Shown piece after piece: positions 1,951-11,187 of a stretch of DNA of 60,805 nt. Both the position numbers and the translations under genes were made by a program. The DNA comes from Lachnospiraceae bacterium (GTDB taxonomy: Bacteria > Bacillota > Clostridia > Lachnospirales > Lachnospiraceae): assembly GCA_017427775.1 (NCBI GenBank), contig JAFRSD010000048.1:1-60805 (forward strand). The letters are read 5' to 3'. The notes under the pieces were generated by a model. It ran no database searches and was not told the origin of the DNA. It saw only the letters and a program-made list of their open reading frames with translations. How positions within the stretch are numbered: the stretch's first letter is position 1; each line of letters starts with the position of its first letter.

Positions 1951-3339
1951 ATGAATGTATTGAGATTTCGTAAGGCGGTGGCAATGGCCCTGATAGCGGT
2001 CCTGCTCACCGGCTGTACGTCCTCAAAAAAGAAGAAAGAAGACGCGCGTGCCGATTACGCGCTCTGCGAGCATATCGTATCCATCGATCCGAGCAGCGGT
2101 TCCATCGCGGACAATGCTGTGCTTGACGTGGACGGGTTTTACGTGGTGAAGGACAACGTGTATGTGAACACCGATTCCCTGAATATCCGTCTCGCGCCCA
2201 ACACCGAATCAAAGCTTGTGACGATCGCTCCTTACGGAACGGGCCTGCAGCGGACAGGCATCGGACAGGACGGCTGGGACAGGGTGGAATATGAAGGCGA
2301 TATATGCTATGTGAACCATTCGCTCGTAACGGTCGTGCCGATCCAAAGCACGAAATCTTTCGAATTTTCCTCCGCGGCTTTGAAGATCGTGGAGACGAAA
2401 CGTCAGCAATACACATATGATGACTTGTGTCTGGACCTTGAGGAACTCCGTAAGACCTACGGCGACAAGATGAAGCTTCGAAGCATCGGTTTCTCGTCGG
2501 ATAACCGCTGTATCTTCGAGGTTGTGATCGGAACGGATCACGCGCGAAAGGACATCTACCTTGTTGCGGGAATCTGCGGCTCCGAATACATGACGTCGCT
2601 GGTGATCATGAAGCAGGTGGAGTATTACCTGCATTATTATGACGCCGGATACTATGACGGCTACGCGTTTTCCGACCTGTTCGACAATGTGCGGCTGCAT
2701 ATCGTTCCGATGTTGAATCCGGACAGCGCGCAGATCAGCCAACTGTATCTGCAGGGCGTATCGCAGGATGCGATGAAGAAGCAGCTTCGCGAGTGGTTCG
2801 ACCGAGACCAGGCTTCGCTCGGCATTAACCAGAATCTGGAGACCTATCTGCAGACATTTTATGCCAATGCGGAAGGCACCGACCTTCGGAAGAACTTCCC
2901 GTATCAGTGGGATCTGGTGGCTTCGTCTGCGGAACCCGGTTCGTCCGGCTACCGCGGCAGTTCGGAAGGCAGCAGCGCGGAAGTCAAATCCATTCTGAAC
3001 GCGGTTCTTCAGACAAAGCCGGCTCTTGTGATCGCTTATCATACGACCGGCAGTAAGATTTTCTATCAGTACGGGCAGCGCGAGGAGGTTCTCGCAAAGG
3101 CACGCGATTACGGCGCGGCGCTTGCGAAGAAGATGACCTACGAACTTGCGGACAAGAAACTCGTGGAAGACGGCTACGGAACACTGGCCGGTTACTGCAA
3201 TGACGTGGCAATGATTCCGGCGCTTACGGTGCATCTCGGAAACGGTTCCGCACCGCTTTTCTTAAGTGAATTCAGCGCGATCTGGAACGCCATCCGCGAT
3301 TCGTGGGCGGAACTGCTGGTAGAAACGATAGAGTGGTAA
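1951..3339 (+). CDS. Lipoprotein with SH3-like domain and M14 carboxypeptidase-like domain, altered active site
   Basis: 462 residues with an N-terminal signal peptide and lipobox (LLTGC, lipid cysteine C22), so it should be anchored on the outer face of the membrane. Residues about 67-130 look like a bacterial SH3 domain (VNTDSLNIRLAPNTESKLV). Residues about 155-460 follow the zinc carboxypeptidase (M14) fold, including the NPDSAQ segment and an RKNFPYQWD segment. The usual HxxE zinc motif reads C209-G-S-E212, the third zinc ligand position keeps H364 (IAYHTTG), and the usual catalytic Glu near the C-terminus is replaced by H428 (TVHLGNG). It may have altered metal chemistry or bind peptidoglycan peptides without cutting. 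The RBS GGAGG at 1938 supports this start. It follows radA by 16 bases and may be co-transcribed. Confidence 0.75.
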   Translation: MNVLRFRKAVAMALIAVLLTGCTSSKKKKEDARADYALCEHIVSIDPSSGSIADNAVLDVDGFYVVKDNVYVNTDSLNIRLAPNTESKLVTIAPYGTGLQRTGIGQDGWDRVEYEGDICYVNHSLVTVVPIQSTKSFEFSSAALKIVETKRQQYTYDDLCLDLEELRKTYGDKMKLRSIGFSSDNRCIFEVVIGTDHARKDIYLVAGICGSEYMTSLVIMKQVEYYLHYYDAGYYDGYAFSDLFDNVRLHIVPMLNPDSAQISQLYLQGVSQDAMKKQLREWFDRDQASLGINQNLETYLQTFYANAEGTDLRKNFPYQWDLVASSAEPGSSGYRGSSEGSSAEVKSILNAVLQTKPALVIAYHTTGSKIFYQYGQREEVLAKARDYGAALAKKMTYELADKKLVEDGYGTLAGYCNDVAMIPALTVHLGNGSAPLFLSEFSAIWNAIRDSWAELLVETIEW

Positions 3340-3413: not shown

Positions 3414-3442
3414 TTGACATAAAACGCATTCTGTTGTAGTAT
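3414..3442 (+). promoter_or_regulatory. Sigma-A promoter of the T-box leader
   Basis: TTGACA at 3414-3419, a 17-base spacer, and TAGTAT at 3437-3442. It starts transcription about 20-30 bases before the T-box stem I. Confidence 0.8.
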
Positions 3443-3469
3443 GTGTTTCAGTCAATTTCATATATGCGT

Positions 3470-3724
3470 TGAAGAGGAATAGTACCGAATCATTTCGGAT
3501 TCAGAAAGCTGCCGGTTGATGCGAGGCAGTCGAGGAGTGTTCGGGAACTCGCCTTGGAGCAGCGGGTTGAAGGCCTTCGGGTTGCGTAGATACCGCCGGA
3601 ATCCCACCGTTACAGGGGAAGAGCATCGACTTTGTCCGTGCTTACTGAGTGCATGTTTATCATGAAATAGAGTGGTACCACGCGATTAGCGCCTCTATCC
3701 TGACAAGGGATAGAGGCTTTTTTG
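3470..3724 (+). ncRNA. T-box riboswitch, probable leucine specifier (CTC)
   Basis: A transcription-attenuation leader that reads uncharged tRNA. Visible elements are the AGTA specifier-loop motif (3481-3484), the stem CCGAA/TTCGG (3485-3489 with 3540-3544), the distal loop GGTTGATGCGAG, the specifier-loop 3' side GAACTCGCC with CTC at 3548-3550 preceded by AA and followed by a purine, the T-box AGAGTGGTACCACGCG (3669-3684), and a terminator hairpin (3691-3700 with 3708-3717) ending in seven T. CTC reads leucine. The TGGT bulge fits a tRNA with discriminator A, as tRNA-Leu has. The amino acid assignment is inference. The downstream gene is neither a synthetase nor a classical leucine biosynthesis gene. 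Confidence 0.88.
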
Positions 3725-3755
3725 TTTCCATCGATTGATTAACGGAGGTTAAGTA

Positions 3756-6281
3756 ATGAAAATCAGTTTTTCCACCATCGGCTGTCCTGATTATTCCTGG
3801 TCCGACATTTATACCATGGCGAAGGACCTCGGATATCACGGCATTGAGATCCGGGGACTCGGAGAGCACATCAGCGCCTATAAGGCAAAGCCTTTCTCTG
3901 AGGCCAATGCGGCCGCTACCGCGAAGAAATTGCAGGACATCGGTCTTGAGATTTCCTGTTTCTCTTCGGGCTGCCCGCTTAAGTATCAGGACCGCCTGGA
4001 TAAATCCATTGAAGAACTTACGGCGTACGCAAAGCTTGCCAATCAGTTCGGAACGGCGTATATCCGTGTCCTGGCCGATGAGAATCCGAAGCCCGAAGGT
4101 GATGTGGATGACAACGCGATCATCGAGGCATTGAAGCGCCTCGAGCCGATTGCCGAGCAGTACAACGTAACGATGTGCGTGGAAACGAACGGCGTCTATT
4201 CCGATACGGCCAGACTTCGCAAAGTATTGGATGCTGTCGGAAGCAGAAAAATAGCCGCTTTGTGGGATATTCATCATCCGTACCGTAACTGCGGTGAGAC
4301 TCCCGAACAGACGGTTTCGAATCTCGGCGAATACATCAAGTATGTTCATGTGAAGGATTCCGTTGAGGTTAACGGCGTTGTTTCCTACCGTATGATGGGA
4401 CAGGGTGACATGCCGATCAGGGAGGCATTTGACGCGCTTTCGAGCATGCATTATACCGGTTATGTTTCGCTTGAGTGGGTGAAGAGATGGAGTAAGGAAC
4501 TGGCGGACGCTTGGGTTGTATTCCCGCAGTTCGCGCATTTCATGGAGCCCTACAAGACCGTTCATAAGAACCCGCTGCAGACCGATAACCGCGGAACCGG
4601 CTACTATATCTGGCCGAAGAACCATCTGATCCCTTATACGTTCCCGGACATTCTGGACCGTATCTGTGAAGTATTCCCGACGCAGTATGCGTTCCGCTAT
4701 ACCGAGCTCGACTATACGAGAACTTATCCGGAATTCCGCGATGATGTGGACAATTTCGCCCGTTCTTTGATCGCTATGGGCGTTAAGAAGGGCGACCATG
4801 TTGCCATCTGGGCGACAAATGTGCCCGCCTGGTATATCACTTTCTGGGCAACGACCAAGATCGGTGCCGTACTTGTTACGGTCAATACCGCATATAAGAT
4901 CCACGAGATCGAGTACCTGCTCCGTCAGTCCGACACGCATACGCTTGTCATGATTGACCGCTACAAGGACAGTGATTACGTGGAGATCATGAAGGAACTC
5001 TGTCCTGAGCTTGAGACGAGCGTTCCCGGCACACTGCAGTCGAAACGCCTCCCCTGCCTGAAGAATATCATTACGGTCGAGAGTAAGCAGAACGGCTGCT
5101 TTACCTGGGATGAGGCACTGGAACTCGGCGCGGATGTTCCGTATACCGAGGTGGAGAACCGCCGTAAGATGATCGATAAGGACGACGTCTGCAATATGCA
5201 GTATACGTCAGGCACGACCGGTTTCCCGAAGGGCGTTATGCTTACCCATTACAATGTCGTTAACAACGGTAAGGCAATCGGTGACTGCATGGATCTGTCG
5301 ACCGCGGACCGCATGATGATTCAGGTTCCGATGTTCCATTGCTTCGGCATGGTTCTCGCAATGACCGCATCCATGACGCACGGCGTTACCATGAGCCCGA
5401 TCACCGCATTTTCCCCGAGAAAGGGTCTGCACTGTATCAACCAGGAGAAGATCACGTGCTTCCATGGCGTACCGACGATGTTTATCGCGATGCTCGGACA
5501 CGAGAATTTCCCGAAGACGGACTTCTCGCATATGAGAACCGGTATCATGGCAGGATCCCCCTGTCCGATCAAAACGATGGAAGAAGTCATCGAGAAGATG
5601 CATATGCCTGAGATCGTTATCACCTACGGTCAGACTGAGGCGTCTCCTGCAACTACCATGAGCAAAACAAGCGATACCATTGAGCAGCGTGTTAATACTG
5701 TTGGCCCCGCCATCTATGGCGTTGAGACCAAAATTGTCGATCCTGAGACCGGCGAGGAGCTTCCGGACGGTGTACCGGGCGAGTTCTGTGCCCGCGGTTA
5801 CAACATCATGAAGGGTTACTACAAGATGCCTGAGGCGACGGCAGCGGCCATCGATGAGGACGGCTGGCTCCATTCGGGAGACCTTGCTCTGCGCCGCCCA
5901 GAGGACCACTACTACAAGATTACCGGCCGAATCAAGGATATGATCATCCGCGGCGGTGAGAATATCTACCCGAAGGAGATCGAGGACTTCCTCTACACCT
6001 ATCCGAAGATCCGCGACGTACAGGTTATCGGCGTACCGGATGCGGATTACGGTGAGGAGATTATGGCCTGCATCATCCTGAATGACGGCGAGACCACTAC
6101 CGAGGATGAAATCAAGGATTATGTGCGCACCCATATGGCGAAGCACAAGGTACCGCGCTACGTGGATTTCGTGACGGAGTTCCCGATGAACGCGGCCGGA
6201 AAGATTTTAAAGTACAAGATGCGTGAGGAAGCCGTGGAGCGCCACGACCTTCATAAAGCAAATAAGATCGAAACAGCATAG
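3756..6281 (+). CDS. Fusion: xylose-isomerase-like TIM barrel + AMP-forming acyl-CoA ligase
   Basis: 841 residues. The first about 265 residues match the sugar phosphate isomerase/epimerase (AP endonuclease 2-like) TIM barrel, with start MKISFSTIGCP and acidic/His residues such as ETNGVY and WDIHHP that would bind a divalent metal. From about residue 285 to the end it is an AMP-forming acyl-CoA synthetase: YTSGTTGFPKG (about 482-492), FHCFGM, YGQTEASP, GWLHSGD, RGGENIYPKEIE (about 732) and the C-terminal lysine motif GKILKYKM (about 816). The ligase would adenylate a carboxylic acid and pass it to CoA; the acid cannot be read from sequence. Start is the ATG after GGAGG at 3743-3747. Expression is controlled by the T-box just upstream, so induction is expected when the cognate tRNA is uncharged. 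Confidence 0.85.
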   Translation: MKISFSTIGCPDYSWSDIYTMAKDLGYHGIEIRGLGEHISAYKAKPFSEANAAATAKKLQDIGLEISCFSSGCPLKYQDRLDKSIEELTAYAKLANQFGTAYIRVLADENPKPEGDVDDNAIIEALKRLEPIAEQYNVTMCVETNGVYSDTARLRKVLDAVGSRKIAALWDIHHPYRNCGETPEQTVSNLGEYIKYVHVKDSVEVNGVVSYRMMGQGDMPIREAFDALSSMHYTGYVSLEWVKRWSKELADAWVVFPQFAHFMEPYKTVHKNPLQTDNRGTGYYIWPKNHLIPYTFPDILDRICEVFPTQYAFRYTELDYTRTYPEFRDDVDNFARSLIAMGVKKGDHVAIWATNVPAWYITFWATTKIGAVLVTVNTAYKIHEIEYLLRQSDTHTLVMIDRYKDSDYVEIMKELCPELETSVPGTLQSKRLPCLKNIITVESKQNGCFTWDEALELGADVPYTEVENRRKMIDKDDVCNMQYTSGTTGFPKGVMLTHYNVVNNGKAIGDCMDLSTADRMMIQVPMFHCFGMVLAMTASMTHGVTMSPITAFSPRKGLHCINQEKITCFHGVPTMFIAMLGHENFPKTDFSHMRTGIMAGSPCPIKTMEEVIEKMHMPEIVITYGQTEASPATTMSKTSDTIEQRVNTVGPAIYGVETKIVDPETGEELPDGVPGEFCARGYNIMKGYYKMPEATAAAIDEDGWLHSGDLALRRPEDHYYKITGRIKDMIIRGGENIYPKEIEDFLYTYPKIRDVQVIGVPDADYGEEIMACIILNDGETTTEDEIKDYVRTHMAKHKVPRYVDFVTEFPMNAAGKILKYKMREEAVERHDLHKANKIETA

Positions 6282-6467: not shown

Positions 6468-6496
6468 GTGAAAGCGGTTGTGAAAACCGCACCGAT

Positions 6497-6569
6497 AGGG
6501 GTATAGTTCAGCTGGTAGAATAACGGTCTCCAAAACCGCAGGTCGTGGGTTCGAATCCTACTGCCCCTG
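6497..6569 (+). tRNA. tRNA-Trp (anticodon CCA)
   Basis: The acceptor stem AGGGGTA (6497-6503) pairs with TGCCCCT (6562-6568) and discriminator G at 6569, as expected for tRNA-Trp. The D-arm AGTTCAGCTGGTAGAA, anticodon CCA at 6530-6532 in loop CTCCAAA, and T-loop GGGTTCGAATCCT are all present. The 3' CCA is not encoded. The outermost pair of the anticodon stem is an A-C mismatch. It is a stand-alone gene with its own promoter and terminator. Confidence 0.97.
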
Positions 6570-6573
6570 TAAG

Positions 6574-10992: not shown

Positions 10993-11187
10993 AGGAATCA
11001 TTCCTGGGGTGTACGACAACTCCTGTGTTTTTGAACCTACAACTTTAAAAAGGGATTCCTATATCGCTGAGTGGATGTCAGGCCTCCTTCGAGTGGAAGG
11101 CAGCAAGCTCAGTTGCGGTCACCCACCTAGCTTGTGCTAGGAGTCAAGAAGCAGGAAACGGCATTCCGGGAATAAGTTGGATTCGAT
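10993..11187 (+). ncRNA. ssrS: 6S RNA
   Basis: 6S RNA mimics an open promoter and sequesters sigma-A RNA polymerase in stationary phase. The transcript carries features I know from Clostridial 6S RNAs: GGGGTGT near the 5' end, TTTTTGAACCTACAACTTTA and AAAAGGGATTCCT in the central bubble, GTCAGGCCTCCTTCGAGTGG, GCGGTCACCCACCTAGC, AGGAGTCAAG, and AGCAGGAAACGGCATTCC at the 3' side. The closing stem pairs GGAAT (10994-10998) and TTCCTG (11001-11006) with CAGGAA (11152-11157) and ATTCC (11163-11167). The mature 3' end is not certain; the primary transcript runs to the terminator at 11217. Confidence 0.92.

Follow-up and report, generated by a model that had tools for sequence, protein, structure and literature searches.

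The window analysed here is a 60,805-nucleotide (nt) stretch of DNA from a gut bacterium of the Lachnospiraceae (contig JAFRSD010000048.1 of assembly GCA_017427775.1, genome G000 below). Our subject is a leucine-type T-box leader within it, together with the gene that follows, which encodes a TIM barrel fused to an AMP-forming acyl-CoA ligase. The leader and the gene comprise the following features.

3414..3442, + strand: sigma-70-like promoter TTGACA-N17-TAGTAT, a consensus match only (10/12 positions)
3460..3699, + strand: T-box leader RF00230, Leu type (Rfam covariance model, 105.6 bits, full model)
3548..3550, + strand: specifier codon CTC (Leu), from the covariance-model alignment
3667..3698, + strand: antiterminator outer arms ATAGAG (3667-3672) and CTCTAT (3693-3698), from the sequence
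3673..3679, + strand: T-box bulge TGGTACC, from the covariance-model match and the sequence
3691..3717, + strand: intrinsic terminator hairpin followed by a T run, from folding and a sequence scan
3756..6281, + strand: TIM barrel-acyl-CoA ligase fusion of 841 amino acids, from the open reading frame and domain searches
3756..4595, + strand: xylose isomerase-like TIM barrel, residues 1-280 (boundary approximate), from domain match and conservation
4626..6242, + strand: AMP-forming acyl-CoA ligase domain, residues 291-829, from domain match and conservation

The leader match exceeds the Rfam gathering score of 93 bits and spans model positions 1-219. The initial annotation had described a complete T-box with a CTC specifier and a TGGT bulge, ending in a terminator directly ahead of the gene, and all of this holds up; its start, 3470, falls 10 nt inside the start of the Rfam match. 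The terminator has a folding energy of -20.1 kcal/mol (z -5.0 against shuffles), and the antiterminator stretch folded alone does no better than shuffles (z -0.29). Terminator and antiterminator share the 3' arm CTCTAT and are thus mutually exclusive structures. Across 42 related leaders, the leader's own six-base arm can still pair downstream in 35, compared with 674 of 1466 leader-swapped combinations. The TGGT of the bulge would pair with the tRNA ACCA end. The gene starts 57 nt past the end of the T-box match with the terminator alone in between, and the idea that the T-box serves another gene was dropped given this distance and the presence of the T-box upstream in 19 of the 19 genus genomes that have the 5' end of the gene. 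On its sequence, the identity of the leader as a Leu T-box is virtually certain, and as a transcriptional T-box it would sense uncharged tRNA-Leu and turn the ligase gene on.

Twelve T-boxes were detected in G000 with Rfam (E ≤ 0.001), six of them above the gathering score. They precede valS, tyrS, pheST, ileS, metG, thrS, the trpE operon, a trpB-like gene (trpB2), three ligases and one unclear gene, the first genes behind the aminoacyl-tRNA synthetase and trp T-boxes being assigned by family models above curated cut-offs. In the Rfam columns ahead of the 'aCC' element, the leaders carry GUA for valS, AUG for metG, AUC for ileS, UGG for trpE and trpB2, and UUC for pheS; the window leader carries CUC in those same columns, in a register shared with valS. 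The tyrS and paaK leaders are offset by one column, and the thrS specifier is not settled by the Rfam model. The covariance model confirmed CTC in the window leader, with no other codon in the specifier columns, and the alternative frames AAC or ACT were dropped, as they conflict with the register that valS, metG, ileS and trpE establish. Going by Table 1 of TBDB (0.77; PMC7778990), CUC is the usual Leu specifier, and the window leader is the sole Leu-read leader among the 12. A mechanical specifier rule, which returns several candidate codons for most leaders, includes CTC in 45 of the 47 leaders associated with the ligase system vs none of 10 T-boxes of other G000 genes; in the leaders at loci L089 and L162, CTC was read by eye and lies outside the rule's candidates. 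On eight leaders of known amino acid, the rule included the right codon in six and failed for thrS and pheS, and it leaves the paaK specifier unsettled. Separately, a T-box with a TGGA bulge and the specifier ACC or ATT on contig 13 of G000 (L097, 973-1184) has an unusual payload, consisting of a gene that resembles GNAT/2'-5' ligase by eye (no NCBIfam match) and a methyltransferase-like gene.

Of the 22 genus genomes searched (G000 included), 19 carry the fusion, against none of 15 other family genomes in the same search, and all 19 carriers have a T-box with GAA-CTC-[GA]CC upstream of it. A search designated genome_contigs gave 591 relatives, of which the best 80 were retained; the alignment covers residues 1-841 in 79 of these and residues 1-834 in one. 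Fourteen of these 80 loci have a T-box motif in the 700 nt ahead of the gene. Four of the 14 belong to this genus and are already counted; the ten from outside the genus (protein identity 71-76%) all read CTC, six of them with Rfam scores above the gathering score. At the class level, a T-box was found in 13 of 29 loci, all CTC, after one of 14 motif matches (L189) was dropped for lying inside a coding sequence. A CTC T-box also precedes a stand-alone ligase (L211, L212, L214, L216) or a LeuA-like gene plus fusion (L207) in 5 of 12 loci, the stretch upstream of L205, L206 and L208 being too short to look for one. At the loci outside the genus, then, every T-box found ahead of the fusion (23) or of a related operon (5) reads CTC. 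The 42 fusion leaders all differ in sequence, yet they are related and hence do not represent independent events.

The fusion itself had been thought to look unusual, which proved wrong: it occurs in 91 of 291 sampled Clostridia genomes (carrier status was read from the match table, including partial matches that span the domain border) and is common in this class, not rare. A homologue also occurs in records named R. flavefaciens, a species that we take to be an isovalerate user. Shared partner genes beside the fusion were considered and dropped, as among 76 non-genus loci the largest neighbour families occur in nine loci and appear unrelated by eye. At a single one of these 76 (L088), an Ile-type ligase adjoins the fusion.

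The flanks of the locus identify what occupies the same place in a sister species.

1951..3339, + strand: Peptidase_M14 gene upstream of the locus, with a homologue upstream in the sister species (family search, neighbourhood comparison)
6496..6570, + strand: tRNA-Trp (CCA), 3' of the exchanged payload (tRNA scan)

The order in the window is clpC-radA-M14-[CTC T-box]-fusion-tRNA-Trp-...-tgt-yajC. G006 is a fusion-free species of the genus; there, clpC-radA-M14 is followed by a small gene, tRNA-Ala, tmRNA and then a CTC T-box with a leu-ilv operon, leuA-ilvB-ilvN-ilvC-ilvD-leuC-leuD-leuB-AAA-ilvA-tRNA-Trp (enzymes by Pfam), and farther on by tgt-yajC-addB. A tRNA-Trp gene lies 3' of the payload in the window, and the four further fusion loci that were scanned, G006 and G015 all have it there too. 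Of 17 other genus carriers with flanking sequence, G015 alone does not share the neighbourhood, and the remaining 16 match it on one side or both. In five of the 16 a gap of ~350-420 nt, similar to that in the window, separates the end of the M14 gene from the fusion; in ten the two are 2.7-6.7 kb apart, with other genes between them, and in one the upstream side is cut off. In G017, likewise without the fusion, the leu-ilv operon recurs at a contig end, again preceded by a similar T-box. The genus fusion leaders average 68.6% identity to the leaders of these two leu operons, compared with 52.1% (best 62.3%) for non-genus fusion leaders, and the other G000 T-boxes reach at most 56.7% in the four comparisons listed. 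Because the neighbourhood is shared and the genus leaders are closest to the leu-operon leaders, the sensor was most likely resident and the coding part exchanged; we infer that the leu-ilv operon came first. The window leader thus shares RNA family, CTC specifier and locus with the leucine-operon leader of a sister species, but its payload is one ligase fusion rather than a pathway. Several further genera of the family likewise have T-boxes (specifiers not read) a short way upstream of leuA, and for Geobacter the literature describes a tRNA-Leu(GAG) T-box at leuA (PMC2700814).

G015 (80% complete) looks like an intermediate of this exchange. It has leuA-ilvBNCD at the old place (L134, 3677-11646), without a T-box and without leuCDB there, and its T-box and fusion sit elsewhere in the genome. 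Because G015 kept leuA-ilvBNCD without leuCDB at the old locus, the fusion appears to go with loss of the leucine-only part. Farther along in the window, a 6S RNA (RF00013, 74.3 bits) is encoded at 10998-11176 (+).

The gene content of the genus follows the same pattern. In profile searches, IlvD was not found in 17 of the 19 genus carriers and LeuC, told apart from aconitase by frame length, was not found in 18 of the 19; each is present in all three genus non-carriers (Fisher values of 0.0065 for IlvD and 0.0026 for LeuC, relatedness ignored). Completeness is below 90% for seven of the 19 carriers and for the non-carrier G011; among the 12 carriers that are at least 90% complete, IlvD is missing in 11 and LeuC in 11. 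G000, which is 99.9% complete, has no leuC or ilvD match genome-wide and no leuCDB at the locus, LeuB and LeuD not having been searched for genome-wide. It does encode a class IV aminotransferase. An acetolactate synthase small subunit look-alike (by eye) was also seen in this genome without ilvD (L130, 1602-2165, - strand). A universal rule by which the fusion replaces the leu pathway was rejected, as it fails outside the genus and is a mere trend at the class level: among the 291 Clostridia, 51 of 91 carriers lack IlvD vs 66 of 200 others, in a comparison that is uncorrected for relatedness and uses a model that also matches related dehydratases.

We consider it likely that the ligase supplies leucine, a link proposed in the initial annotation and now strongly supported by the CTC codon in every associated T-box read, the leu-ilv exchange and the loss of ilvD and leuC in most genus carriers. 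That annotation also named isovalerate as the acid, which remains our best guess, reached by elimination and from the known rumen pathway. The product of the ligase would enter after isopropylmalate, because leuC is absent and leuCDB is not at the locus. In the scheme that we favour with good confidence, an isovalerate-CoA ligase under a Leu T-box feeds reductive carboxylation to leucine: exogenous isovalerate would be turned into isovaleryl-CoA by the ligase, then carboxylated to 4-methyl-2-oxopentanoate by a VorB-type 2-oxoacid:ferredoxin oxidoreductase whose genes lie elsewhere in the genome, and finally converted to leucine by the class IV aminotransferase. VOR enzymes accept the leucine keto acid. 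The ligase might instead activate another leucine-feeding acid, such as isobutyrate via 2-oxoisovalerate and LeuABCD. A LeuA_dimer protein does persist in 22 of the 22 genus genomes searched, and a LeuA-like gene heads one related operon; the absence of LeuC, the one LeuCDB protein searched for genome-wide, from 18 of the 19 genus carriers and of leuCDB from the locus, and the retention of ilvBNCD in G015 though leuCDB is gone from its old locus, make this very unlikely. For G000 we dropped isobutyrate, which would need LeuCDB, since LeuC has no match there.

Other T-boxes of the genus also control acid-CoA ligases. In 13 of 13 genus genomes examined, carriers and non-carriers of the fusion alike, an Ile T-box (ATC, read by eye) stands ahead of genes, in this order, for an XRE-cupin-ligase protein, a P-loop NTPase and the alpha and beta subunits of a VorB-type enzyme. 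In G000 this operon lies on contig 5 (T-box at L095, 661-898; genes at L129, 3519-9490) and includes a ferredoxin and a gamma subunit, two genes that were checked in this genome alone; the alpha subunit scores 537 bits against a VorB cut-off of 399. At L088, an XRE-cupin-type ligase and the fusion lie divergently, the former with an ATC T-box and the latter with a CTC T-box. On contig 41 of G000, a T-box read as TTC (Phe), less securely since by analogy with tyrS, precedes a PaaK-like phenylacetate-CoA ligase and a protein with a pair of ACT domains (L094, 787-1031; L130, 6105-7906); the genome also has a prephenate dehydratase, and a second PaaK-like stretch adjoins an indolepyruvate:ferredoxin oxidoreductase alpha gene. 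The PaaK operon shares with the window locus the amino-acid-linked control of an acid-CoA ligase but differs in ligase subfamily, and its ligase falls short of the PaaK cut-off (541.7 of 646.3 bits). Geobacter has iorAB-paaK under tryptophan among its regulated biosynthetic operons (PMC2700814), which may serve as a partial precedent for such control.

That the gene fuses a TIM barrel to an AMP-forming acyl-CoA ligase, as initially proposed, is confirmed by its Pfam domains: AP_endonuc_2 at residues 22-245, AMP-binding at 302-689 and AMP-binding_C at 741-816. The ligase half matches both PF00501 and PF13193, and 29 checked core positions are invariant in 28 homologues, including K816, presumably the catalytic lysine; the roles of the other positions are likewise our assumption. 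Domain architecture and motifs are shared with PRK12583-type acyl-CoA ligases (NF009233), but the window protein adds the N-terminal TIM barrel and scores below the curated cut-off (694.7 bits against 832). In a midpoint-rooted ligase tree of 38 sequences, the separate ligases of L211-L216 make their own side, so that association with a CTC T-box occurs on both sides of the root. One fusion gene (L056, 3435-5957, from a metagenome assembly) has an in-frame stop at codon 97 and may be broken or misassembled; it is labelled ligase_only in the tree, and its T-box is still counted.

Isovalerate is also used for lipids in ruminococci, and the models that the ligase matches are those of fatty-acid CoA ligases. 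It could thus be argued that the enzyme primes iso-branched fatty acids with isovalerate, leucine being sensed since isovaleryl-CoA otherwise derives from leucine. We regard this as unlikely, because the ligase gene occupies the place of the leu-ilv operon, most genus carriers lack leuC or ilvD, and T-boxes are found on other acid-CoA ligases as well.

The TIM half matches PF01261 with 104.6 bits (cut-off 31.1). In the 28 homologues E143, D171 and E240 are invariant and residue 198 is either His (24 sequences) or Gln (four); we take these four positions to be metal ligands, and the barrel probably keeps its metal site. Compared by sequence with solved structures, it comes closest to AsbF (E 1.6e-5). 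The predicted whole-chain structure is of moderate quality (mean predicted local distance difference test 79.6, predicted template modelling score 0.60), and in Foldseek all 50 among the matches listed are ligase or luciferase folds. In L213 and L216 TIM and ligase are separate adjoining genes with an Amidohydro_2 gene nearby, and in the clade L205-L208 a TIM domain only ~28-29% identical to that of the window precedes a ligase that is 65-66% identical. Conservation of the metal-site residues, together with these two arrangements, suggests that the barrel matters. In L205, L206, L207 and L208 a LeuA-like gene (LeuA_dimer; weaker, partial HMGL match) lies ahead of the TIM-ligase fusion, that of L207 (3744-5147, - strand) behind a CTC T-box; it perhaps encodes a leucine sensor instead of an enzyme.

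The barrel, with the amidohydrolase and LeuA-like gene of its relatives, might make or modify the acid, in which case the locus would be an undescribed leucine module rather than one for simple acid uptake. The conserved likely metal ligands, the separate adjoining TIM and ligase genes with Amidohydro_2 in L213 and L216, and the divergent second TIM domain ahead of the ligase in another clade are consistent with this. At L211, L212 and L214, however, the ligase stands under a CTC T-box with no TIM match within the 5-7 kb fetched, and we hold this account to be rather doubtful. Stated more broadly, Clostridia might carry an undescribed leucine-T-box module of ligase and TIM barrel, joined in some lineages by an amidohydrolase and a LeuA-like protein, in which the barrel performs a chemical step and which replaced the de novo pathway in one genus under an inherited tRNA-Leu sensor; this we offer tentatively, as a minority view.

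Several observations weigh against isovalerate activation for leucine supply under T-box control. Although the co-occurrence search found CTC wherever there was a T-box, most carriers outside the genus showed no T-box motif: none was found in 66 of the 80 genome_contigs loci (four with less than 400 nt of upstream sequence) or in 16 of the 29 class-level loci, and the R. flavefaciens loci L035 and L051, like L017 and L019, have no Rfam match up to E 0.01. VorB-type genes occur in non-carriers too, and their presence was therefore dropped as a discriminating test. The ligase matches generic fatty-acid CoA ligase models, each below cut-off, and the TIM barrel is superfluous for the proposed reactions. 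G004 carries the fusion plus a complete, more distant leuACDB-ilvBNCD cluster, and G000 retains an orphan 2-isopropylmalate synthase (PRK03739 type, above cut-off; L128, 7528-9222, contig 9) that the scheme does not need. A LeuC-size protein is kept in 16 of 20 hand-picked non-genus carriers, and the exchange is therefore special to the genus.

Carboxylation of isovalerate to leucine in ruminococci was reportedly traced by labelling (Allison, 1962 and 1966). For the rumen, direct carboxylation of isovalerate followed by amination to leucine is described (PMC7356843). The proposed pathway shares its start and end product with this route, for which we found neither an activating-step gene nor T-box control. 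In the open literature we found no gene named for the isovalerate-activating step of the rumen leucine route, and no paper that joins a T-box with phenylacetate-CoA ligase, reductive carboxylation or a CoA ligase; papers on T-boxes with acyl-CoA or isovalerate include none on such control, judging by title. The terms CoA ligase, acyl-CoA, AMP-binding, phenylacet and ferredoxin are all missing from the main texts of Wels 2008 (PMC2494555) and of a 2013 regulon survey (PMC3766115). Leaders similar to that of the window may be catalogued in databases such as TBDB.

The surprise lies in the swap of payload under a retained sensor and in the concrete gene candidate that it exposes. The locus represents a natural experiment in which one sensor stayed and the regulated pathway was exchanged, and it provides a widespread, cloneable candidate for the activating step of an isovalerate-to-leucine route known for about sixty years, a candidate with a built-in functional label in the form of an RNA switch that reads leucine starvation. 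Because Ile- and Phe-type leaders occur on other acid-CoA ligases, these findings suggest that salvage of amino acids from fermentation acids follows a general logic, one that bears on the isoacid feeding of ruminants.

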